Positions 1,420 through 15,170 of a stretch of DNA of 64,000 bases are shown piece after piece. Location of the stretch: assembly GCA_026693085.1 (NCBI GenBank), contig JAPLNB010000147.1, positions 1 through 64,000 of the forward strand, written 5' to 3'. Within the stretch, counting starts at the first letter, position 1, and each line of letters opens with the position of its first letter. A program made the translations under genes and the position numbers. This stretch comes from Planctomycetota bacterium. Its GTDB lineage: Bacteria; Planctomycetota; Phycisphaerae; Tepidisphaerales; Tepidisphaeraceae. Below the pieces are notes generated by a model. It did not search any database. It was not told the origin of the DNA and saw only the letters and a list, made by a program, of their open reading frames with translations.

Positions 1420-1735
1420 GCGGTTGCGGATTGCAGACTCAAGTGCCTTGTGATTTCATCGCGCGGGACCGTGAGGATCCGATCGCGCGAACAACCGTTG
1501 GCGTTGCCATGGCGCCGTCGGGTTCTCCGCAACCATTGATCTTCTGCAGACGATATATCCTGCACGTGATGTTGCCGCGTAACATCTTTCGAGGTAGTGA
1601 CTTAGGGCCAATGGGCCACGAGGATTCTGCTGGAGGCGGCAGATGCTGGAGCTGCTGCAAGGGACGGACAGGGCTGCAAGCGGCACCTCGTCTTTAACGC
1701 TGACCTGTGCCCACGCGGGACACGAGGGAGATGAT

Positions 1736-4700
1736 ATGCGACATCATTCCGCCACGCAGAGGACGGTTCGAAAACTTCAATCTGCAATCGAATCCAGCCA
1801 CTTGCAGTTGCTGGAGCCGCGGCGGCTGCTGGCGGCGGACGTGATCATCACTGAGATCATGCATCACCCGATCCCGTATGACCCTGGGGCGGAGTACATC
1901 GAGCTGCACAATCGCGGGGATGCCCCGGCGAATCTGAACGGCTGGAGATTCTCCAAGGGCGTGGATTACACGTTCGGAGACGTGGTTCTTGGGGCGGGGG
2001 ACTATGTTGTGGTTGCCGGGGATCTTGCGCGATTCCAGGCCAAGTACCCCGGAGTCGCCAACGCGGTAGGGGGGTGGACTGGCCGATTGAGCAATTCCCA
2101 GGAGGAGATTGAGCTGGAAGACTCGCCGGGTCAGGCGATGGACAGCGTCACGTATGCTGACGAAGGCGATTGGGCCGTCCGGCGGCGTGGACCTGTGGAT
2201 CGGGGGCATCAGGGCTGGGTGTGGGAGCAGGCCGCCGACGGGGGAGGGAACTCGCTGGAACTGGTGAATCTTCGGCTGACCAACAACGAGGGACAAAACT
2301 GGCGATCGAGTTCGGTGGTGAATGGCACGCCGGGCCAGCCCAATTCCGTCGCGGCCAGCGACATCCCGCCGATGATTCTGGATCTTCGCCAGACGCCGAT
2401 CATCCCCAGGTCCACCGATCCGGTGACCATCACCACGCGCATCATTGATGAGCTCGGCACCGCAAAGACCGCCAGGCTCTATTATCGCGTGGATGCCGCC
2501 AGCCCGCCTCCTTTCACCAGCATTGCCATGCGCGACGACGGCGCCGGGGGCGATGGCGTGGCCGGGGATGGCGTATGGATCGGTGTCCTCCCTCCCCAGG
2601 CCGATCGCGCGGCCGTGGAGTTCTACGTCTGGGCATCTGATGGAACCAACACGCGCACCTGGCCGGGACCCACCGACAGCGCGGGGATCATCCAGGGCGC
2701 CAATCTGCTCTACCAGGTGGACAACTCGACCTACAACGGCACTCAGCCGGTCTATCGCATCATCATGAGCGAGGCGGAGCGCGCCGAGCTGGCCGACATC
2801 GGCTCCGATCCGGGCGACGGCGTCAGCGAAGAGGATTCCGGAGCGCAGATGAACGCGACGTTCATCAGTGCCGATTCGGTATCCACGCAGATCCGCTACA
2901 ACGCGGGCGTGCGAAATCGTGGGCACGGCACGCGTCACGGCCCGCCCAACAACTTCCGCGTCAATATTCCCAGCGACCGAACCTGGAATGATCTGAGTGC
3001 ACTGAACTTCAACTGCCGCTACACGCCTTCGCAGGTCATCGGCAGCGCCGTGTATCGCATGGCCGGACTGGCGGCGTCCGATACCCTCCCCGTCCAGCTC
3101 CGCGTCAACGGCGCGGATCTGGCGGCGGGCCAGGCCAACATGTACGGCTCGTATGCCCTCGTCGAGGAAACCAACTCCGACTTTGCCGACAACCATTTCC
3201 CGCAGGACTCGCAGGGGAACCTTTACTCGGCTTTTCGACTCGATCCCGCTGGCGTGCCCGAGGCCGACCTCCGCTATGAGGGCACCAACCCCGACACCTA
3301 CCGCAACCGCTACTTCAAGGACACCAACACCGAGGCCGACGACTTCTCTGACCTCATCCACATGACCGATGTCCTGAATAATGCGCCCGATGCCGCTTAT
3401 CTTCAGGAGGTCAGCAAGGTCATCAATGTCGAACAGTGGCTGCGATATCTCGCGGTCGATGCTCTGCTCCTGAATTGGGAGACCGGGCTCGACCGCGGCA
3501 TCGGCGACGATTACACCTTATATCGCGGGGTGAAAGATCCGCGCTTTATCTTGCTTCCCCGCGACCTGGACACCGTGATGGGTCAGGGCAACAGCGTCCC
3601 AGCCACCACCACCAGCATCTTCAACTTCACTGGCGTGGATGGACTGAGCCGTTTTCTGAATCATCCTGACATCGTTCCGCTCTTCTATCAGGCCTTCATT
3701 GAGGTCATTGATGCTACATTCAACCCGCAGGTCCTCAATCCGCTGATCGATCAGATGCTGGGGGGCTGGGCTGCGGCGGACCGGGTTGTTTCGGTCAAGC
3801 AATTCGTCGTCGATCGGACCAGGGACGTGCTTCTACAGATCCCTCGGCAGTTCACGATCGCCAGTTCGCTGCCCATGGTCAGCGGCTTCCGCCGAACGAC
3901 CACGGCCACTGCGATACTCACCGGAACGGCCGACGTCGTGCGAACGCGCTCAGTGCGGGTGAACGGCCAAGTGGCGGCGTGGTCCGGGCGCGCCGGGACG
4001 TGGTCCGCCGACGGCATTTCACTCAACCCCGGCATCAATCGCGTGCTCGTTGGCGCCTATGACGGGCCTGGCGGCGCCGGCGCGGTCGTCCACGAAGGCT
4101 TCATCGACATTCTTTACGACGGCAGCGGGATTCCCTGGGCGCCGCCGCAGCCGCAGGTGCAGAGCCTTGGCCTCTTTGTCCCCGACAGCTATCGCCCGGG
4201 GACGCCGATCCTGATTCAGGTTTCCGCGATCGATAGCGCGGGGCACGTCCAGCGCGACCTGTGGAACGCCATCGTCACGCTTGCGACCGATCGCACGGAT
4301 ATCACGCTCTCAGCGACGCAAGTGACGTTGCGCAACGGCCTGGGCAGCGTCCTGGCGAATGTCACGGGCACTGGCACGGGGTCGGTTACGATCACGGCAA
4401 CGTTGGGCGCGGTCAAGGCGACGCGGACGCTGGCCAGCCTCGCGGGCACCACCATTGCGAACGTCTCCGGGACACTTTCCGGCCCTTCAACGACCTGGAC
4501 CGGCATCATCCACGTCACCGGCGACCTGCGAATCCCCGTCGGCCATATCCTTACCCTCCAGCCGGGCACCCTGGTGCTGATCGATGGTGTCGCATCCGGC
4601 GACACGGGGATCGACATCGACGTCGAAGGCTCCATCCAGTCGCTGGGATCGACTGATCACCCCGTTGTGTTTACCGCCTACGATCCAGCCAGGCGATGGG

Positions 4701-7700
4701 GGGAAATTCACCACAACAACGCCGCCGCCTCACTCTATCAGAACACGATTCTCACGCTGGCAGGCAATTCGCCTCGCGGGGGGCATTCCAACACCGGCCC
4801 GCTGATCCGCACGAACAACTCCAAGATCACTTTCGACCATGCCGCCCTGACCGACAATGCCGGCAAGATCATGCAGGCCGACAATTCCGACCTGACCTTC
4901 CTGGGCGCACACTTTGCGCGATCGGTCATGGGTCCGGAGATCGCCGGCTCCTCGCTGCTCTTCCAGGATTCGTTCATCTTCGAGATGCGCAACCCCGATG
5001 ACGGCGACGGCATCTACATTCACAGCCAGAAGGCCGGGCAGACCGTGTTGCTCAAGGGCGGCATGATCGGCCTGGTGGATGATGACGGCATCGACACGCT
5101 GGCCTCGACGGTGACGATCGACGATGTCATCGTCCGCGACACCAAGGACAAGGGGTTGAGTGCCTACGATGGGACCGTCTACGTCAAAGGCTCGCTGTTC
5201 GTGGACAATGGCCTGATGCCCGAGGACGGCGCCAGCACCGCCATCTCCGCCAAGTCCACCGCCGGCAATGTTGCCACCGTCAACATCGATCACACGACGA
5301 TCGTCTCTGCCACCATCGGCATCCAGGCCAAGGACAAGTACAACACCGACAACGACACAGTCAACTACGTCGTCACCAATTCCATTATCAGCGCGACCGA
5401 TCCGATCCAGATTGATCCGACCTATCCGATCACGGCCAATTTCGCGATCACCTACACGAACACATTCGGCGAGAACGTCACCGGCCAGGGCAACCTCAAC
5501 ACCGACCCGCTCTTTGCTGACCGCGTCAAGTACAACTTCTATCTCCAGCCGGGTTCGCCGGGCGTCAATGCCGGAAACCCGGCCTCGGTGAATGACCCGG
5601 ACGGCTCGCGCGCCGACCAGGGCCGGTATCTGAACGGCCTGTCCGGCTCCCTTGCCGGCCCGACGATCCCCGGAGGGTCTATCAGCAATGACATGATATT
5701 GACGCCGGGGGGCGGTCCTTACCACGTGACCGGCGTCGTCCAGGTTGGGCCCGGCAAGACGCTCACCATCCTGCCCGGCACCACTCTCTTTTTCGATGCC
5801 AGTGCCGGAATCACCATCGACGGCGGCCGGTTGCTGGCCGAGGGCACCGAGTTTGCGCAGATCCGCTTTACCCGCACCATTGGCAGTACGAACCCGTGGG
5901 CAGGCATTCAACTGCTCAATACGATGCTCGACAACCGCATCGCCTATGCGATTGTCGAATACGGCGGCTTGACGACCAACAATGGCATGGTCGGCTTGAC
6001 CGGGTCCAATCTCGTGCTCGACCAGGTCACCTTCGACCACACCGACCGCCGCCGCATCCGCTCTGAGAACTCGTCGCTGATCGTCCGGAATTCGGTGTTC
6101 ACGGAGATCTTCCCGGGCACGCAGGCGCCCACCACCGACAATCTGTCGGAGCACATCTGGGGCGGCGGCATCCCTGCCGGCGGGCATTTCATCGTCGAGA
6201 ACAACGTCTTCGGTGCGGTGAAGGGCCACAATGACGCCATCGACTTCGACACGGCCGCCGGCACCGTCCCGATCCCGCAGATTCTCAACAATCGCTTCGA
6301 GGGTTCCGGGGATGATGCCCTGGATCTCGAAACCGATGCCTACATCGAAGGCAACACGTTCCTGCACATCCGCAAGGACCAGTACAACACCGCCGCCGGC
6401 AATTCCAACGGCATGTCCCTGGGCAGCGGGCGAAACTACAGCGTGTTCCGCAACGTGTTCCTCGATGTGGACCACGTCGCCCAGGTCAAGGACAATGCGT
6501 TCCTCACCTTCGAGAACAACACGGTGGTCGGCGCCGCCTATCCCGCCATCTATTTCCTTCGGCCGGACGGGGCGGGCACCCATGGCCGCGGTGCTGCTCT
6601 GGATGGCAACATCTTCGAAGATGTTCCGGTGCTTTTTGCGAGTTTCACCGCCCAGACGCAGATTACCGTCAACCGTTCGATCGTTCTGGCCGCGGATGTG
6701 AGCCGCGGCGTGGGGAATCTCGCCCTCGATCCGCGCCTGGTGGACCCGGCCAACGGTGATTTTGGCCTTCGCCCCGGATCGCCGGCTGGCGGCGCCGGCT
6801 TCAATGGCTTGGACATGGGCGCAACGGTTCCCGCGGGCGTTTCCATCTTCGGCGAACCGCCCGTCCTGACCAATCGCAACGGCGCATCGCTCGCGGTTGC
6901 CGGGCCGGGCATTACGCATTACAGGTACCGCGTCAACAGTGGCCCGTGGAGCGCCGAACGTCCCGTCAGCACCCTCATCGAGCTAACCGACCTCGCCGAT
7001 GGCGATTACACGGTCTATGTCCTGGGCAAGAACATCGCGAGGGTCTGGCAGGAGGAGTCGCGCGCCACCGCCTCGCGCACCTGGACCGTCAATGCCGCGA
7101 GAAGCGGTCTGCGCATCAACGAGATTCTCGCCATCAACAACACTGCCGTCGCCTACAACGGCAATTACCCGGACCTTATTGAGCTTTACAACGAGGGCCC
7201 TGGCCCGATCGACCTGGCGGGGATGAGCATCTCCGATGATCCGCTGGACCCCAAAAAGTTTGTCTTTGCCGATATCACGCTGGACGTGGGCCAATACCTG
7301 GTTCTTCTGGCCGACGACCGCGCCGGCAACGACGCGATTCACCTCGGTTTTGCGCTGAGTGCCAGCGGCGAAGGCGTGTATTTGTTTGACCCCGACGGCA
7401 ACCGGATTGACTCGATTGCCTTCGGCCGTCAGATTCCCGATCGGTCCATCGGCCGCCTTCTCGACGGCGGCTGGGCGCTCACGCAGCCGACGTTCGGCTC
7501 TGCCAACATCCTCCAGAGAGCCGGCGATCCTGCTTTGCTCAAGATCAACGAATGGCTTGCCTCGGGAGTACCGCCCTTCAGCAACGATTTTATCGAGATC
7601 TACAACCCCGAACCGCTGCCCGTGGACCTCTCGGGCCTCTATCTGACCGACAACCCCAACGGCTGGCCAGATCGTTATGCCATCCCTTCGCTGAGTTTCG

Positions 7701-10700
7701 TGCCCGCTGGCGGCTTCATGGCGTTCCAGGCCGACAGCGATCCGGAGCAGGGCGCCGATCACACCAACTTCCGCCTGGCTTACGAGCAGGGCATGATCGG
7801 CCTGTTCGACCGCGACGGCGATCGCACCGACGCGGTTCTCTATCGCTCGCAGCGCCTGGGGAGCTCGGAAGGCCGCGCTCCCGACGGCGCCGGCGCGTTC
7901 GTATTCTTCACGCAACCCAGCCCCGGCGTCAGCAATCCGTATGCGTCCAGCGAAACGCAGGTCGTGCACCTGATTGCCATCGACGCCGCCCAGTGGTTCT
8001 ACAACTCCACCGTCGCTTTCACCACCGACGCTTGGGCGCAGAGCAGTGCCGGCGAAGCCGGCTGGTCCAGCGGCGGGCGAGCCGCCTTCTATACCGACGC
8101 CGACCCGTTCCCCGCCGGCATCCCACGGAACACGAACCTCGGCGTGAACCGCACCACCCACTACTTCCGAAAACATTTCACAATCGCAGACCCCGCGCAG
8201 GTCGTGTTGCTCACACTGTCCACGGCGGTAGACGATGGCGCGGTCGTCTACCTCAATGGCCATCCCGTCCAGTGGATCGCCATGGCCCAAGGTGCGATCA
8301 CCTACTCCACCCTCTCCAACCGACCGGGCACATGGGAAACCACCCTTGAGGGTCCCTTCACCATCGACAAGAGCTTCCTGGTGCCTGGCGAAAATGTCCT
8401 GGCGGTCGAGGTGCATCAAAAATCGGGGAGTAACGACGCCGGATTTGCGGTGATACTCGATGCGACGATTCGCACCGCGCCGCTGCCTCCGCCGTTGCGG
8501 ATCACCGAGATCAACTACAATCCGCTCGGTGGCGACGATTATCAGTTCGTCGAGATCAGCAATACGGGCTCCGCAGCGGTTAATCTGAAGGGCGTTCGGT
8601 TTGCCGCCGGCATTACCTTCACCTTCCCCGACATCACCCTGGCGCCCGGCGAACGCATCGCCGTCGTCAAGAACCCGGCGGCCTTCACCGCCCGCTATGG
8701 CAGCGGGGTCCGCATTGCTGGCCCCTACATCGATGCACTGAGCAATGATGGCGAGGAGCTTCGACTGGTCGATTCCGCCGGCTCGATCATGCAGGATTTT
8801 GCCTACAGCGACACGTGGTACCCGACGACCGATGGCGGCGGCTACACGCTGGCGATCGTCAACCCATACGCCGACCCATCCACATGGAGCAGCTCCGCCA
8901 GTTGGGTTCCCAGTCGCTTTATTCTGGGCAGTCCCGGCATGACCGAGCCGCAGATTGCCGCGGATACCGTTGTCATCAACGAGGTTCTCAGCCACAGCCA
9001 TGCCCCCGCCGCGGATTGGATCGAGCTGTACAACACCACCCGACAACCGATCGACATCGGCGGCTGGTATCTGAGCGATTCGCCCGACAACCTCCGCAAA
9101 TTCCGCATTCCCGCCGGCGTCAGCATCGCCGCGAACGCCTATGTTGTCTTTGACGAGGCCGAGCACTTCGGAAACCTTGCCAATCCCAACGCCATCGTCC
9201 CCTTTGCCCTGAGCGAGCTGGGCGATGAGGTCTATCTCTCGGCCACCGATTCCGCCGGCAATTTCACCGGCTACCGCCACCGCATCGTATTCGGCGCTGC
9301 CGCCACCGGGGTCTCGTTCGGCCGGTTCACCAACAGCACCGGCCTTGTGGAATACCCCGCGATGAGCTTCCCCACGCCCGCCGAGCCCAATGCCTACCCC
9401 CTCATCGGTCCCGTTGTCATCAGCGAGATCATGTACCATCCCTTCGACAACAAGGGTGCCGAGTACCTGGAGCTGAGGAACATCACCGGCGTGCCCGTGC
9501 CTCTCTTCGACACGCTTCACCCGCAGAACAACTGGCGCTTCAGCGGCGGCATCGAGTTCGCTTTCCCGCCCCGGAGCATGATCCCTGCCTTCGGCTACGC
9601 CCTGGTCGTCTCGATCGATCCGGCGGATTTCCGTAGCGCGTACAACATCCCCGACGCGGTGCCCGTCTTCGGGCCTTTCGCCAACGGCAGCGCGCTGAGC
9701 AATGGCGGCGAAGAGATCATTCTCAGCAGGCCCGGCGGTCCCGACCCCGACGGCACCATCCCCTGGATCGTCGTCGATCGTGTGGATTACGGCCCCACTA
9801 CACCGTGGCCCGCCAACCCCGACGGCGGCGGACCGTCCCTTGTGCATCCTTTCCTGCTCCGCTACGGCAACGACCCCGCCGCTTGGATCACCGGACCCGC
9901 CACCGGCTCGCCTGGCGCCGGACCAGAGGTCCTGCTTGGAACCTCCTCCCCCGACGATTACCAGTTGATCCGCGACGCGGGCGGAGCCATCCAGTTGATC
10001 CTCAACGGCCAAGCCATCAGCATCCCGACGCTCCAGAGCGAATCCGTTGCCCTGAACGGACTGGCCGGCGACGATGAACTCCGCATTGACTTCTCCAACA
10101 GCAACCCCATCCCCGCGGCCGGGTTCCTTTTTGCCGGCGGCGAGGGGGATAATCTTCTGAAGATCGTCGGCACAAGCTCTGCTGACAATCTTCTCTTCAG
10201 CGATGGGCAATTGACGTCCGGCACCCGCTCCATCGGCTTCGGCAACACTCGCATCGAGCTTGGCGAAGCCGGGAACGTCGCCGAATTCGGCGATCTGACG
10301 CTCGCCGGTGCTGCCAGCGTGGCACTGCACCGCGACGGCGGCACACTGCTGAACCTGCGAAAGCTCAGCATCGCGCCGCTGGCGACGCTGGACCTGGCCG
10401 ACAATACACTCATCCTCCAGACCAGTCCCTACACCCAGTCGGCGGACCTGGCCACGCTGTTTGCTTACGTCAAGTCCGGCCGCGCCAACGGCGACTGGAC
10501 CGGCCCGGGCCTGGTCAGCACCACCGCCAAGTCACAACCCTTTACTGGCCTGGCGCTGCTCGCTGCCGGGGATTCCATCCGTGTAAAGTACACCTGGGAC
10601 GGCGACGCCAATGGTGACGGCGTTGTGAACGCCGACGACTATTTCCTGATCGACTCCGGCTACATCACCCAGGTCGCCGCCTATCAGAACGGGGACTTCA

Positions 10701-10891
10701 ACTATGACGGCGTCATCAACGCCGACGACTATTTCCTGATCGACTCCGCGTTCATTGGCCAGACCGGCCCCCTGGCCGTTGGGCAGCCGGCCGACGATCC
10801 GGCCATGGCCGCTGTCCGCCAGCCGCAGCCGAAACGCGATGCCGAGCCGTCGGTCCTGGCCCAGTTGTTCTCGACCGACCCCGTGTTCTAG
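1736..10891 (+). CDS. Giant exported CotH / beta-helix / multi-LTD / dockerin-type protein
   Basis: The 3051-residue protein is likely secreted or surface-attached. I chose ATG 1736 because GAGGGAG lies just upstream and the planctomycete LEPRRLLA motif then falls at residues 26-33. Order of domains: LTD at ~35-150; CotH-like kinase fold at ~340-705 (NNFRVNIP, YGSYALVEE and LLPRDLDT segments); an Ig-like stretch; two right-handed beta-helix blocks at ~910-1680, rich in NNTVV/IYFL-type coils; LTD repeats beginning near 1790, 1935, 2255, 2410 and 2560; a galactose-binding-like domain at ~2075-2250; and two dockerin/EF-hand-like loops near 2957 and 2988 (DANGDGVVNADDYF, DFNYDGVINADDYF). The chain ends in a short SVLAQLFSTDPVF tail. 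The CotH fold is known to phosphorylate spore-coat protein in Bacillus; here the substrate is unknown. It is a single gene with its own terminator. Confidence 0.9.
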   Translation: MRHHSATQRTVRKLQSAIESSHLQLLEPRRLLAADVIITEIMHHPIPYDPGAEYIELHNRGDAPANLNGWRFSKGVDYTFGDVVLGAGDYVVVAGDLARFQAKYPGVANAVGGWTGRLSNSQEEIELEDSPGQAMDSVTYADEGDWAVRRRGPVDRGHQGWVWEQAADGGGNSLELVNLRLTNNEGQNWRSSSVVNGTPGQPNSVAASDIPPMILDLRQTPIIPRSTDPVTITTRIIDELGTAKTARLYYRVDAASPPPFTSIAMRDDGAGGDGVAGDGVWIGVLPPQADRAAVEFYVWASDGTNTRTWPGPTDSAGIIQGANLLYQVDNSTYNGTQPVYRIIMSEAERAELADIGSDPGDGVSEEDSGAQMNATFISADSVSTQIRYNAGVRNRGHGTRHGPPNNFRVNIPSDRTWNDLSALNFNCRYTPSQVIGSAVYRMAGLAASDTLPVQLRVNGADLAAGQANMYGSYALVEETNSDFADNHFPQDSQGNLYSAFRLDPAGVPEADLRYEGTNPDTYRNRYFKDTNTEADDFSDLIHMTDVLNNAPDAAYLQEVSKVINVEQWLRYLAVDALLLNWETGLDRGIGDDYTLYRGVKDPRFILLPRDLDTVMGQGNSVPATTTSIFNFTGVDGLSRFLNHPDIVPLFYQAFIEVIDATFNPQVLNPLIDQMLGGWAAADRVVSVKQFVVDRTRDVLLQIPRQFTIASSLPMVSGFRRTTTATAILTGTADVVRTRSVRVNGQVAAWSGRAGTWSADGISLNPGINRVLVGAYDGPGGAGAVVHEGFIDILYDGSGIPWAPPQPQVQSLGLFVPDSYRPGTPILIQVSAIDSAGHVQRDLWNAIVTLATDRTDITLSATQVTLRNGLGSVLANVTGTGTGSVTITATLGAVKATRTLASLAGTTIANVSGTLSGPSTTWTGIIHVTGDLRIPVGHILTLQPGTLVLIDGVASGDTGIDIDVEGSIQSLGSTDHPVVFTAYDPARRWGEIHHNNAAASLYQNTILTLAGNSPRGGHSNTGPLIRTNNSKITFDHAALTDNAGKIMQADNSDLTFLGAHFARSVMGPEIAGSSLLFQDSFIFEMRNPDDGDGIYIHSQKAGQTVLLKGGMIGLVDDDGIDTLASTVTIDDVIVRDTKDKGLSAYDGTVYVKGSLFVDNGLMPEDGASTAISAKSTAGNVATVNIDHTTIVSATIGIQAKDKYNTDNDTVNYVVTNSIISATDPIQIDPTYPITANFAITYTNTFGENVTGQGNLNTDPLFADRVKYNFYLQPGSPGVNAGNPASVNDPDGSRADQGRYLNGLSGSLAGPTIPGGSISNDMILTPGGGPYHVTGVVQVGPGKTLTILPGTTLFFDASAGITIDGGRLLAEGTEFAQIRFTRTIGSTNPWAGIQLLNTMLDNRIAYAIVEYGGLTTNNGMVGLTGSNLVLDQVTFDHTDRRRIRSENSSLIVRNSVFTEIFPGTQAPTTDNLSEHIWGGGIPAGGHFIVENNVFGAVKGHNDAIDFDTAAGTVPIPQILNNRFEGSGDDALDLETDAYIEGNTFLHIRKDQYNTAAGNSNGMSLGSGRNYSVFRNVFLDVDHVAQVKDNAFLTFENNTVVGAAYPAIYFLRPDGAGTHGRGAALDGNIFEDVPVLFASFTAQTQITVNRSIVLAADVSRGVGNLALDPRLVDPANGDFGLRPGSPAGGAGFNGLDMGATVPAGVSIFGEPPVLTNRNGASLAVAGPGITHYRYRVNSGPWSAERPVSTLIELTDLADGDYTVYVLGKNIARVWQEESRATASRTWTVNAARSGLRINEILAINNTAVAYNGNYPDLIELYNEGPGPIDLAGMSISDDPLDPKKFVFADITLDVGQYLVLLADDRAGNDAIHLGFALSASGEGVYLFDPDGNRIDSIAFGRQIPDRSIGRLLDGGWALTQPTFGSANILQRAGDPALLKINEWLASGVPPFSNDFIEIYNPEPLPVDLSGLYLTDNPNGWPDRYAIPSLSFVPAGGFMAFQADSDPEQGADHTNFRLAYEQGMIGLFDRDGDRTDAVLYRSQRLGSSEGRAPDGAGAFVFFTQPSPGVSNPYASSETQVVHLIAIDAAQWFYNSTVAFTTDAWAQSSAGEAGWSSGGRAAFYTDADPFPAGIPRNTNLGVNRTTHYFRKHFTIADPAQVVLLTLSTAVDDGAVVYLNGHPVQWIAMAQGAITYSTLSNRPGTWETTLEGPFTIDKSFLVPGENVLAVEVHQKSGSNDAGFAVILDATIRTAPLPPPLRITEINYNPLGGDDYQFVEISNTGSAAVNLKGVRFAAGITFTFPDITLAPGERIAVVKNPAAFTARYGSGVRIAGPYIDALSNDGEELRLVDSAGSIMQDFAYSDTWYPTTDGGGYTLAIVNPYADPSTWSSSASWVPSRFILGSPGMTEPQIAADTVVINEVLSHSHAPAADWIELYNTTRQPIDIGGWYLSDSPDNLRKFRIPAGVSIAANAYVVFDEAEHFGNLANPNAIVPFALSELGDEVYLSATDSAGNFTGYRHRIVFGAAATGVSFGRFTNSTGLVEYPAMSFPTPAEPNAYPLIGPVVISEIMYHPFDNKGAEYLELRNITGVPVPLFDTLHPQNNWRFSGGIEFAFPPRSMIPAFGYALVVSIDPADFRSAYNIPDAVPVFGPFANGSALSNGGEEIILSRPGGPDPDGTIPWIVVDRVDYGPTTPWPANPDGGGPSLVHPFLLRYGNDPAAWITGPATGSPGAGPEVLLGTSSPDDYQLIRDAGGAIQLILNGQAISIPTLQSESVALNGLAGDDELRIDFSNSNPIPAAGFLFAGGEGDNLLKIVGTSSADNLLFSDGQLTSGTRSIGFGNTRIELGEAGNVAEFGDLTLAGAASVALHRDGGTLLNLRKLSIAPLATLDLADNTLILQTSPYTQSADLATLFAYVKSGRANGDWTGPGLVSTTAKSQPFTGLALLAAGDSIRVKYTWDGDANGDGVVNADDYFLIDSGYITQVAAYQNGDFNYDGVINADDYFLIDSAFIGQTGPLAVGQPADDPAMAAVRQPQPKRDAEPSVLAQLFSTDPVF

Positions 10892-11155: not shown

Positions 11156-11308
11156 CTAGTGACCCTTCCCAAGCTTCTTCTTCGACGGCTTTGCTGTCAG
11201 CCCCTTTTTGACGGCGTCCTCCCAGTTACCCTTAGGCTTGAGGACTTCTGGTTTTGGGCCGGGCTTGGTCTTGGACTTCGCGGGTTTAGGTTTGGTCTTC
11301 TTCGGCAT
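11156..11308 (-). CDS. Small Lys/Pro-rich basic protein (50 aa)
   Basis: A 50-residue frame begins MPKKTKPKPAKS and ends SKKKLGKGH. Its N-terminal half is a K/P/T tail like histone-H1 or nucleic-acid-binding tails, followed by one folded-looking patch (GNWEDAVKKGLTAK). The composition is far from a random antisense frame. No strong Shine-Dalgarno is visible. It is convergent with the giant gene and divergent from the tRNA. Function unknown; RNA or DNA binding is a guess from charge alone. Confidence 0.5.
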   Translation of the reverse strand: MPKKTKPKPAKSKTKPGPKPEVLKPKGNWEDAVKKGLTAKPSKKKLGKGH

Positions 11309-11348: not shown

Positions 11349-11378
11349 TTGACATGATGGGTGCCGTAGGGGTATGAT
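11349..11378 (+). promoter_or_regulatory. Near-consensus sigma-70 promoter upstream of the tRNA
   Basis: TTGACA (11349-11354, perfect) and TATGAT (11373-11378, five of six) are separated by 18 bp. The first base of the tRNA is 101 bp downstream of the -10 box, so the primary transcript would carry a leader of about 95 nt. It is one of the best promoter matches in the window. Confidence 0.65.
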
Positions 11379-11478
11379 CCTGTCAGCTCACGCGAGCCAC
11401 GCAAGGCGTATCAGCGCGAAGCGTCCGATAGTTTTCCGCCCGAGAGGTTGGAACTGGCTTCAAAGTGAAGGGTTCCGC

Positions 11479-11566
11479 GCGGCGGTGGTGGAAATCGGAA
11501 GACGCGAGGGATTTCGAATCCCTTAACACTGAGCGTGTTGTGCGGGTTCGAGACCCGTCCGCCGCA
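11479..11566 (+). tRNA. Class II tRNA, Leu-like body with UCG anticodon
   Basis: A full cloverleaf can be drawn. The acceptor stem is GCGGCGG (11479-11485) with CCGCCGC (11559-11565). The D arm has GTG/CGC and a leucine-style loop (GGAAATCGGAAGA). The anticodon stem is AGGGA/TCCCT with loop TTTCGAA (11512-11518), giving anticodon UCG at 34-36 after U33. A long variable arm has stem AACAC/GTGTT (11525-11539). The T arm is GCGGG/CCCGT with loop TTCGAGA. The discriminator is A73; CC follows but the final A is not encoded. Body, variable arm and A73 resemble tRNA-Leu, yet UCG would read CGA (Arg), and tRNA-Arg is normally class I. It may be a diverged, recoded or non-translational tRNA. Confidence 0.8.
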
Positions 11567-11635
11567 CCTTCTCTAAATGATTCCGGTTGGTTCCCCGGGC
11601 GCGCCGGTCGATATCAACTGTACACGCTCAGTGTT
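11525..11635 (+). repeat. 14-nt inverted repeat: tRNA variable arm and downstream complement
   Basis: Bases 11525-11538, the variable arm of the tRNA, are exactly complementary to 11622-11635, which lies between the tRNA and the ATPase gene. In a shared transcript the downstream copy could pair with the variable arm. Confidence 0.7.
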
Positions 11636-11638
11636 GTG

Positions 11639-11680
11639 GGGCGTATGCCCTAGAGGGCCACCGCATTTAGTGCGGTGGCC
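11639..11680 (+). terminator. Two consecutive hairpins between tRNA and ATPase gene
   Basis: The first hairpin has stem GGGC/GCCC with loop GTAT (11639-11650). The second has a perfect 10-bp stem (11656-11665 with 11671-11680) and loop TTTAG, followed by TATAT. They sit 26 bp before the ATPase start, so they could terminate the tRNA transcript or attenuate the operon. Confidence 0.5.
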
Positions 11681-11706
11681 TATATCGCCTTGAATAGAGT
11701 ATCACA

Positions 11707-12885
11707 ATGAGATTGCAGTCTATCAAATTCATACAGTATGAGGGCGGGCCCCGTGTCTGGACCTTGGAGGAATTGGCCCTTGGGGAAACCAATCTAGTGG
11801 TAGGTCGTAACGCTTGCGGCAAGACGCGGACCCTGAACATCATCCACAATCTGGCGAGATTGATTTCTGGTCGCATTCGTGAACTGTTTGACTCTGGAGA
11901 TTATGTCGCGAAGTTTCGGGATGGGAGCGATTCATACGAGTACCGGCTGAAATACGCGGGGTTTAAGGTCACTCAGGAATCATTCATCAAGAACAACAAG
12001 GTATTGTTAGAGAGGGGTGCTGAAGGGAGAGGGAAGATCGCCTTTGAGAAGGCGAGCGGGGAGATGCAAGAGTTTCAGCACGAAGACTCGGTTCTTGCTG
12101 TGTGTGCGCGCAAAGGGGACACGATCCAGCACAGTTTTCTTGAGCCGCTACATAGCTGGGCGAGATCCCTCTATCACTATTCATTCGGCGGTAACCTGGG
12201 GCAGAGTTCTTATGCTGGGGTCGTGAAGAAAGAGGATGTTGCGGATGAAGTGATGTCGTGGCAGACGGATAGAGTTGTAGTTATCTGGGTTGATGGTGAG
12301 AAGCGTTTTCCCGGGGAATTCGAGAGGATGATCCTTAGTGACATGGCGCGATTAGATTATCCAATCGACAAAATCACCGTTGCGCCGCCGATAGCGATCA
12401 GGTTTCAAGGTGTTCCTGTAGCGGGCATTGTCGGTCTAAGTGCCAAGGAGAGTGACCTCATTGCGCCGACGGAGCAGTTTGAAATGTCGGACGGGATGTT
12501 TTGCGCCCTCTCACTTCTCATCCAAGTGAACTATGCGATCATGACTGGAAGGGCCGCCTGTGTTGTAATTGATGATAGTGGCGAGGGTCTGGACTTCGAG
12601 CGATCATGCAAACTGATCGAACTCTTGATGGAAAAAACCTCGTGCAGCAAGGTTCAACTAATCATGTCTACGAACGACCGCTTTGTGATGAACGCGGTTC
12701 CCTTGAAAGCGTGGACGATTCTGAAGAGAAGGGGGCATCTAGTTAAGGTCTTCAACTACATCAACTCAAAGTCTATCTTTGATGAATTCCAGTACATGGG
12801 ACTTAACAACTTCGACTTTCTGGCGATGGATTTCGTCGAAGGGGAGGGCAGTGGCGAGAAGACCGAGGAGGAGGCGGAGGGATGA
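11707..12885 (+). CDS. AAA/ABC-type ATPase of a two-gene defence-like module
   Basis: The 392-residue protein has a Walker A motif GRNACGKT at residues ~33-40, after the N-terminal strand typical of OLD/AAA_21-type ATPases (LQSIKFIQYEGG). A Walker-B-like VVIDDSGEGLDFER lies near ~285, after an ABC-signature-like region (EMSDGMFCALSLLIQ), with a late STNDRFVMNAV segment. No nuclease domain is fused. The stop overlaps the next gene's start (ATGA), so translation is coupled. This architecture (small ATPase plus TOPRIM-like partner) matches PARIS AriA or RloA/AbiLi-type anti-phage systems. Base composition is less GC-rich than the flanks, which suggests horizontal transfer. The family is inferred from motifs; the exact system type is uncertain. 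Confidence 0.75.
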   Translation: MRLQSIKFIQYEGGPRVWTLEELALGETNLVVGRNACGKTRTLNIIHNLARLISGRIRELFDSGDYVAKFRDGSDSYEYRLKYAGFKVTQESFIKNNKVLLERGAEGRGKIAFEKASGEMQEFQHEDSVLAVCARKGDTIQHSFLEPLHSWARSLYHYSFGGNLGQSSYAGVVKKEDVADEVMSWQTDRVVVIWVDGEKRFPGEFERMILSDMARLDYPIDKITVAPPIAIRFQGVPVAGIVGLSAKESDLIAPTEQFEMSDGMFCALSLLIQVNYAIMTGRAACVVIDDSGEGLDFERSCKLIELLMEKTSCSKVQLIMSTNDRFVMNAVPLKAWTILKRRGHLVKVFNYINSKSIFDEFQYMGLNNFDFLAMDFVEGEGSGEKTEEEAEG

Positions 12886-13595
12886 AGAAATTGGCGATCT
12901 TTGCCGAGGGAGGTACGGAACAGGCTTTTGCAGAGAAGTTGTTGTTGGCGGTAGGGGGTGAACGGCGGATACAGATTCGGAAACAGAGATTCCGAGGCGG
13001 GCGACGTGGCGGCCCTCGAACTAGATCGGCATCCACATGGGTTGGCATTCCTCATGGTTCGGCTGACGCGAAGTATTACGCCCAGATCATTGATTGCGGA
13101 CAAGATGAACGAGTAAAGGGAGACCTTATTGAGAATTACAAATCGCTGACTCAGCATGGGTTTGATGCAGTCATCGGAATTCAGGATGTGATTCCGAAGA
13201 CGCATGCTGAGCTTCATTTGGTCAAGCTGCACCTGAGAGATCGCTTGCCCACAAAGCCAATCAATCCGGTGATGGTGCTCGCAATCATGGAGACGGAGGC
13301 GTGGTTCTTGGCTGAGCATACGCATTTTCCCCGCGTCCATCCGGGACTGACACCCACGACAGTATCAAAGGCCGCTGGTTTCGATCCGATTAAAGACGAT
13401 ATGGAGGCACGCGTACGCCCCGCCGAAGATTTGCACAGAATCTATCAGGCGGTGGGTTGTGTGTACGAGAAGAAGCCGCAGTGCATTCAGCGGACTGTTG
13501 ATGCACTGGATTACGAATCGGTGTATCTTGAACTCGGTGATCGTGTTCCGGCAATCAGGCCGCTGATCGAAGCAATTGACGCATTCCTCTCATGA
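12882..13595 (+). CDS. TOPRIM-like (DUF4276/RloB/AriB-like) putative nuclease partner
   Basis: The 237-residue protein opens with LAIFAEGGTEQAF, the acidic-glycine E..TE signature of OLD-type TOPRIM and DUF4276/RloB proteins. A second acidic strand (AVIGIQDVIPK, ~residue 100) sits where the TOPRIM DxD would be but is degenerate. A METEAWFLAEH block (~130) resembles the DUF4276 E-A-W motif. A basic stretch near residues 30-47 (RKQRFRGGRRGGPRTR) could contact nucleic acid. Start ATG 12882 overlaps the ATPase stop by four bases. In PARIS the TOPRIM subunit is a tRNA-cleaving effector released by the ATPase. A similar role is an inference strengthened by the tRNA upstream. No third gene follows before 14308. 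Confidence 0.7.
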   Translation: MKKLAIFAEGGTEQAFAEKLLLAVGGERRIQIRKQRFRGGRRGGPRTRSASTWVGIPHGSADAKYYAQIIDCGQDERVKGDLIENYKSLTQHGFDAVIGIQDVIPKTHAELHLVKLHLRDRLPTKPINPVMVLAIMETEAWFLAEHTHFPRVHPGLTPTTVSKAAGFDPIKDDMEARVRPAEDLHRIYQAVGCVYEKKPQCIQRTVDALDYESVYLELGDRVPAIRPLIEAIDAFLS

Positions 13596-14307
13596 CTCGA
13601 TATTGGTTGATACCTCATTCAATGGGGTCTTGTACATCAGTCGTTTCCCTTCTGCGGCCTTAATCGCCGCAACCGTGCGCTCCCCAGGAAAAAGAAAAGG
13701 GGTCACTCCTCATTAATCGACAACTACCGCGCGGACCGCCCCCGACTTCACCCCACCGCCGGCGCTTCATCCCCCATCGCCCGCCAACCCAACTCCCCCC
13801 TCTGGCCCACTTGGTCTCTGCTCACCTATCACGCCAGCTCCTACGCCCACCTCCCCCCCCTCCCCTCCGCCCCCAACAACCAACCCCCCGCCCATCTCGC
13901 CAAACTCCTCGACCTCCCCCCCGCCGCCGCCTGGGGCGGCTTGGTGCTGCTGGCCGGGCTCCCCCTGCGTCAATTCCGTTCCGCCCGCCCCCTCAAGGCT
14001 TGATGGGCATCGCCAGCACATTTGCGAAACAGTCGAATCTGCCAGCACACCATCCTATCGTCGCCAACCCAACCGGCCGGTCCTTCGGGATCGGCCGCTT
14101 GCTTGGAGTCACAAACTAACCCGAAGTTCTTGGAAAACCGCGTTTTTACGCCGATAATGGGGTTGTACCCATGTAAGAACCCCGTTTTTTGCACTGAAAA
14201 TGGGAGTTGCCAAAACTTCGGACTAACCTCTCGTGGCCAACCTGTAGGTGAGTTAACAGTAGAGCCGCATGACAGTGGCCCCGGTAGTCTGATAGAATCA
14301 CCTCACG
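13596..14307 (+). other. Intergenic tract with first copy of the ~240-bp repeat
   Basis: About 710 bp separate the TOPRIM-like gene from the PIN gene. Positions 13688-13930 hold a C-rich sequence repeated at 14935-15170. From 14000 to 14300 I see no convincing gene. That stretch is relatively AT-rich and may hold the PIN promoter. Confidence 0.5.
13688..13930 (+). repeat. Direct repeat, copy A (C-rich gene fragment)
   Basis: It matches 14935-15170 over nearly its whole length with scattered differences. Both copies begin with AAAGAAAAG then GGTCACTCCTCATTAAT. In one forward frame both read as the same degraded peptide (SPLWxTWSLLTYHA followed by PAHLAKLL), so this is a duplicated fragment of a former gene. 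Confidence 0.7.
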
Positions 14308-14751
14308 ATGCGGGTCTACCTTGATGCATGTTGCTTCAACCGCCCTTTCGACGATCCCGGCATTGACCGGAATCATCTGGAAGCGGAGGCGGTTGTGGCA
14401 ATCCTAAGCCATGTGCAGCAAAGACAGTGGTTCCTTATAGGCAGCAGCGCACTGCGGCAGGAATTGAGTGCGGGCCGGGACAGCGAACGCCGTGAAGCGG
14501 TGCTTGGTATGCTTGCCGCTCATTGCGAGTCGATCGAAGTAGGTCAGGCGGAATATGATAGATATAAGGAACTGGTTCAACTCGGCTTCAGACGTATGGA
14601 CTCGTTGCACATAGCCTGTGCCGAGGCGGCGCAATGCGATGTGTTGTTAACGACAGATGACCAGCTCCTGCGTAAGGGCGCCAAGTACGCCGCCCGCCTG
14701 CGTGTGGAAGTTCGAAACCCGGTGGATTGGTTGCTGGAGCAAAAGCCATGA
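14308..14751 (+). CDS. PIN-domain toxin/ribonuclease (VapC-like)
   Basis: The 147-residue PIN fold starts MRVYLDACCFNRPFDD, giving the first catalytic Asp at position 6. A central acidic patch (ELSAG, residues ~55-59), RMDSLHIACAEAA near ~95 and the late LLTTDDQLL supply the remaining metal-binding acids. PIN proteins of this size are usually RNase toxins of type II systems. The stop codon overlaps the next gene's start by four bases, so the small downstream protein is the likely antitoxin in the less common toxin-first order. The module is bracketed by two direct repeats. Confidence 0.85.
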   Translation: MRVYLDACCFNRPFDDPGIDRNHLEAEAVVAILSHVQQRQWFLIGSSALRQELSAGRDSERREAVLGMLAAHCESIEVGQAEYDRYKELVQLGFRRMDSLHIACAEAAQCDVLLTTDDQLLRKGAKYAARLRVEVRNPVDWLLEQKP

Positions 14752-14963
14752 GCCCAATGCAGATGACAATCGCAGAGATCAAGAAGAAGGGATTCGCCGC
14801 ACTGATGAGGGAACTGGGTCCAGTGGGCTATGTCCGCTTCATGCAGCAGTTTGTCGGCCGCAAAGGCGACTACACCAGGGAGCGGGCCAAGTGGATCGAC
14901 AAGGTGGACCTCTCCGACCTCGACAGCAAATTTGGCAAAAGAAAAGTGGTCACTCCTCATTAA
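14748..14963 (+). CDS. Small putative antitoxin partner of the PIN protein (C-terminus replaced)
   Basis: This 71-residue protein begins MSPMQMTIAEIKKKG and contains VGYVRFMQQF and GDYTRERAKWIDK, a pattern I recall from small proteins next to PIN genes. ATG 14748 overlaps the PIN stop (ATGA) and is favoured over the in-frame start at 14727, which lies inside the PIN gene. The last ~9 residues (GKRKVVTPH) are encoded by the start of repeat copy B, so the original C-terminus was probably lost when that repeat arrived. Confidence 0.65.
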   Translation: MSPMQMTIAEIKKKGFAALMRELGPVGYVRFMQQFVGRKGDYTRERAKWIDKVDLSDLDSKFGKRKVVTPH

Positions 14964-15170
14964 TTGACAACCACCGCGCGGACCGCCCCCAACTTCACCC
15001 CACCGCCGGCGCTTCCTCCCCCATCCCCCACCGAACCAACTCCCCCCTTTGGTCCACCTGGTCTCTGCTCACCTATCACGCCAACCCCTACACCCACCTG
15101 CCCCACGCCCCCAACAGCCAACCCCCCGCCCATCTCGCCAAACTCCTCAATCTCACCCCCGCCGTCGATC
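14935..15170 (+). repeat. Direct repeat, copy B
   Basis: This is the second copy of the sequence at 13688-13930, about 1.25 kb downstream in the same orientation. It supplies the stop codon of the small antitoxin-like gene. The two copies bracket the PIN module. Confidence 0.7.

Follow-up and report, generated by a model that had tools for sequence, protein, structure and literature searches.

Positions 11707-13595 of the window (the whole 64,000-nt stretch that was analysed, taken from contig C147 of a 6.24-Mb assembly that was 95% complete and, judging by gene content and general character, planctomycete) most likely encoded a two-gene ATPase/OLD-TOPRIM defence or toxin-antitoxin-like module, in which a guard ATPase would be combined with a toxic effector. 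In our reading, the tRNA gene upstream of this pair was a lineage-specific neighbour and not a component of the system, and we put the probability of this reading at about 0.8. Direct evidence covered the two genes, their conservation across phyla and their relatives. The defence activity was inferred by analogy only, the guarding, release and toxicity steps being taken from work on AbiL, PARIS and NetFlax.

All the features were located on the plus strand in the order promoter-like site, class II tRNA, two hairpins, ATPase gene and overlapping DUF4276 gene (Table 1). The original prediction had described a consensus-like promoter, a class II tRNA, two hairpins downstream of it, an ATPase with a Walker A motif and a base composition unlike that of the flanks, and each of these was recovered. 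Namely, the GC content was 0.49-0.57 across 11.2-13.6 kb, compared with 0.62-0.68 in the left flank and 0.60-0.66 beyond 14.8 kb. The region contained three promoter-like matches versus 1.8 +/- 1.4 in shuffled sequences, so that the promoter-like site was not above chance expectation. Although the hairpins were real, neither of them qualified as a canonical U-tailed terminator in a terminator scan of the region. The leader (11381-11700) had a fold energy 4.9 s.d. below that of shuffles, with the tRNA included in the fold.

Table 1. Features of the tRNA and ATPase/DUF4276 region, in window coordinates.
Feature	Position	Strand	Basis
Sigma-70-like promoter TTGACA-18-TATGAT	11349..11378	+	11/12 bases match
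Class II tRNA with tRNA-Leu(UAA)-like body and UCG anticodon (called Arg-TCG)	11479..11568	+	ARAGORN; Rfam RF00005
Variable arm of the tRNA, left copy of an exact inverted repeat of 14 nt (89% over 19 nt)	11525..11538	+	Repeat search
Hairpin downstream of the tRNA, complementary to its variable arm	11622..11635	+	Repeat search
Strong hairpin GGCCACCGCA-TTTAG-TGCGGTGGCC, lacking a clear U tail	11656..11680	+	Sequence, inverted repeat; absent from terminator listing
ABC/PtuA/Rad50-type ATPase, 392 aa, AbiLi/AriA/HEC-01A-like	11707..12885	+	ORF, profiles, Foldseek
DUF4276 protein, TOPRIM-like putative effector, 237 aa	12882..13595	+	DUF4276, OLD-like_TOPRIM and HEC-01B profiles in alignment members

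The Walker A motif of the ATPase was GRNACGKT, and the GxNxxGK and DDxGEGLDF motifs were conserved in an alignment of nine homologues. Its best profile match was AbiLi (1.7e-16), with further matches to AriA (1.4e-8) and to several HEC-01A and GajA models. Moreover, Foldseek matched the AlphaFold model of this protein (pLDDT 79) to PtuA and Rad50 heads with E-values of about 1e-12 to 1e-11; PtuA was the closest PDB match, with a TM-score of only 0.43-0.49.

The second ORF started within a 4-nt overlap with the end of the ATPase ORF. The original prediction of a TOPRIM-like gene was supported at the level of the family: in the partner alignment, the DUF4276 and HEC-01B profiles were each detected in 10/10 members and OLD-like_TOPRIM in 8/10. 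The window protein by itself, however, scored 15.8 bits, below the Pfam cut-off of 30.2. The AbiLii model matched one of the 10 members (at 0.0016) and did not match the window protein, and AriB was not among the profile matches of the partner proteins. The invariant residues of the alignment included E9, D102, E137 and E139, which would fit an acidic TOPRIM-type site. The AlphaFold model of the putative effector (pLDDT 84) yielded no convincing Foldseek relative and no TOPRIM match (best E-value 2e-3, with poor TM), so the TOPRIM assignment rests on the sequence profiles. Viral homologues of the effector were searched for and none was found.

The pair shared features with several known systems. 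Like AbiL, in which the AbiLi ATPase is encoded with AbiLii (RloB/TOPRIM_OLD), it consisted of two adjacent genes, its best ATPase match was AbiLi and its partner was probably TOPRIM-like; this partner was, however, a DUF4276 protein instead of AbiLii. The PADLOC candidate HEC-01 combines an ATPase with a DUF4276-like protein, and both HEC-01A and HEC-01B models matched members of our family. The window proteins themselves scored weakly (E-values of 1e-4 and 7e-4), which pointed to a divergent branch. Accordingly, the pair is, as judged from the profiles, a divergent planctomycete branch of the known ATPase/DUF4276 group, which is thereby extended. Separate ATPase and putative TOPRIM-type genes as well as the AriA profile match were shared with PARIS, where the second protein, AriB, is DUF4435. 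Thus, the earlier suggestion of a PARIS-type defence pair was partly retained: the pair was probably PARIS/AbiL-like according to the AbiLi, AriA and HEC-01 profiles, but its second gene encoded DUF4276 and not AriB. The likeness concerned the genes; cleavage of host tRNA is the activity described for PARIS. To our knowledge, a tRNA gene is not part of PARIS loci. The ATPase model was closest to PtuA of Septu and retrons, but the HNH protein PtuB was missing from the window pair.

By analogy with AbiL, PARIS and the AAA/TOPRIM_OLD pairs of NetFlax, the ABC-type ATPase would most likely keep the TOPRIM-like nuclease inactive and would sense a phage product. Such a trigger would make the ATPase release or activate the effector, which would then cleave nucleic acid and stop the cell. 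The tRNA would share the region, and perhaps the promoter, with the pair without being part of the system. In NetFlax tests, TOPRIM_OLD toxins were neutralised by AAA proteins, and AbiLii is an effector of this kind (PMC10440598).

The gene pair was kept wherever both genes were visible, namely in Planctomycetes, Bacteroidetes and on a Paraburkholderia plasmid. The 12 homologous loci came from two genomes of the same phylum, six Bacteroidetes loci, one truncated Saprospiraceae locus, the Paraburkholderia plasmid and two copies, at 42% identity, in one genome of the same class. In a search at E <= 1e-20, the pair was not found in the other 395 genomes of the class, and the family genomes searched had neither the leader nor the pair. 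The two same-class copies shared a 2.0-kb stretch with 86% DNA identity, its start being some 175 nt before the ATPase gene, suggesting a recent duplication or mobility of the pair in that genome.

The original prediction had proposed that the tRNA was a cleavage target, a decoy or an immunity tRNA, and a tRNA conserved upstream of the homologues was looked for with ARAGORN. There was none at any of the 12 homologous loci, including both same-class copies, although at two loci the contig started inside the pair and the upstream side was uninformative. The homologue leaders that were inspected also had no tRNA-like fold or structured leader. Additionally, an ATPase frame accompanied 29 of the best 30 DUF4276 loci fetched in the class, and none of these 30 had a tRNA within about 1.5 kb; nor did two further DUF4276 loci of the genome to which the window belongs. 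Since the homologues lacked a nearby tRNA, the window tRNA was probably a chance neighbour of the pair, and tRNA adjacency was not a feature of the group.

The genomic setting would provide the simplest reason for this adjacency. The genes of the next block (homoserine dehydrogenase-phosphoesterase-YidC) were arranged in the same order in a relative from the family, in which both the tRNA and the pair were missing. A PIN-domain gene at 14308-14751 (E-value 1.5e-5) overlapped a 71-codon ORF without a Pfam match, and together (14308-14963) they resembled a toxin-antitoxin pair of the VapC type in which the toxin gene comes first. This module lay between two copies (87-89% identical) of a C-rich repeat of about 240 nt, at 13687-13929 and 14934-15167. 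The repeat, which may be a small mobile element or repeat element, recurred as complete or partial copies at several further sites of the genome. It looks as if the ATPase/DUF4276 pair and the PIN-domain gene sit in a variable strip that holds this repeat. A strip collecting unrelated cargo would be sufficient to bring the tRNA and the pair together.

The tRNA itself was unusual. It matched Rfam RF00005 with 44 bits (E-value 4.5e-6), and at a lax threshold Rfam returned nothing beyond the tRNA and one chance match. Its cloverleaf was complete, with a variable arm of 5 bp and ordinary 7/5 acceptor/T stems. In pairwise comparisons, the nearest genes were tRNA-Leu(UAA) from a planctomycete (67/82) and from phages (65/81 and 65/84), whereas the tRNAs of the host were more distant (53/84 to 58/82 for Leu and 48-49/73 for Arg(TCG)). 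As judged from these alignments, it is derived from a tRNA-Leu(UAA) whose anticodon was turned from UAA into UCG. By hand numbering, it retained the E. coli Leu determinants A73, A14, A15-U48, G18G19 and A20a and also had the Arg determinants A20, C35 and A73, with G at position 36, where a reviewed Arg identity set lists U/C36 (PMC9976931). The tRNA thus carried the known Leu and most of the Arg identity bases, and it might be charged with Leu, with Arg or with neither. Allo-tRNAs and anticodon-shifted class II tRNAs similarly combine a class II body with an anticodon at odds with it, but allo-tRNAs have 8/4 or 9/3 acceptor/T stems (PMC7609411), and the window tRNA was 7/5 and Leu-like, not Ser-like. 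Of the 48 hits that passed the cut-off in the host genome, two were ordinary tRNA-Arg(TCG) genes and none was a tRNA-Leu(TAA); this absence means little because the assembly was incomplete and other isoacceptors were missing too.

Taken alone, the tRNA was more likely than not a working or decaying extra tRNA-Arg/Leu from a phage or another mobile element, with no regulatory role, which is compatible with our main reading. Its similarity to phage tRNA-Leu(UAA) and the position of the variable region next to genes of conserved order favoured this origin, but no att-like direct repeat was found in the window for the 3' end of this tRNA, and the inverted copy of the variable arm described below would be left unexplained. 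With this repeat lacking, use of the tRNA as an integration site was rejected. The same was true of codon supply for the pair: CGA accounted for 14% of its Arg codons versus 11% in the neighbours, and TTA for two codons. Searches for relatives of the tRNA returned only ordinary tRNA-Leu(UAA) genes, and searches for copies of the leader in the same genome, 60 relatives, 391 phylum genomes, phages and plasmids yielded nothing beyond the similarity common to tRNAs and short matches due to chance. Among the loci fetched (the viral matches listed and 392 phylum genomes), the window tRNA was the sole real tRNA with a Leu body and the TTTCGA loop pattern; 12 stretches in viral contigs matched the variable arm exactly. 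Elsewhere in the same genome (contig C16:1000-5000), there was a cluster of eight tRNAs resembling a phage tRNA array, some of them low scoring or odd (e.g., a 94-nt Arg-GCG).

The observation that counted against a chance neighbour was the antisense match within the leader, which mere coincidence did not explain. The exact complement of the variable arm lay 83 nt downstream of it, and a 14-nt match was reached by none of 5000 shuffles of the downstream region. Two alternative folds of the leader were possible: left unconstrained, the presumed transcript folded at -143.4 kcal/mol and paired the variable arm with the downstream hairpin, compared with -132.8 kcal/mol when the cloverleaf was forced. 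The leader might act as a cis-acting switch, with the two mutually exclusive folds determining read-through to the ATPase gene, for example depending on tRNA charging or processing. The promoter scan revealed no second plus-strand promoter-like site before the ATPase gene, which favoured such a switch, and if real the switch would directly link the state of a tRNA to defence gene expression. We gave it a low probability, however. The odd tRNA and its inverted copy were both unique to this genome, and with a single example no conservation evidence or covariation test was possible. Furthermore, a clear terminator was missing, and folding and processing of the tRNA would come first. Since the variable arm is itself a hairpin with a near-palindromic stem, its duplication with an inverted loop was conceivable and would also yield much of the 14-nt match.

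A slightly lower probability was assigned to the tRNA being a recent addition to this one copy of the system, namely a cleavage target, a decoy or a resistant tRNA by which the effector would be set or countered, in the way that phage tRNAs counteract PARIS. The tRNA was on the same strand, presumably under the same promoter, ended 138 nt before the ATPase gene and, in combining Leu and Arg features, was unlike the other tRNAs of the host. Related systems do act on tRNA (PMC12409363), and Septu is reported to cut a tRNA variable loop (PMC13096335). Against this stood the lack of a tRNA at the homologous and family loci and a partner that was neither AriB nor PtuB. Thus, tRNA-linked defence was possible but unlikely. 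Least probable of all was a bistable leader in which the Leu-bodied, Arg-anticodon tRNA and its built-in antisense hairpin would sense tRNA integrity or charging and gate the TOPRIM defence pair in this lineage.

To the left of the tRNA and divergently oriented to it, a 50-aa Lys/Pro-rich ORF without a Pfam match (MPKKTKPKPAKSKTKPGPKPEVLK...) was located at 11159-11308 on the minus strand. Further upstream, positions 1643-10891 encoded a 3082-aa protein that was apparently of the lamin-tail/surface repeat type and carried dockerin-like repeats at its C-terminus (GDGVVNADDYFLID).
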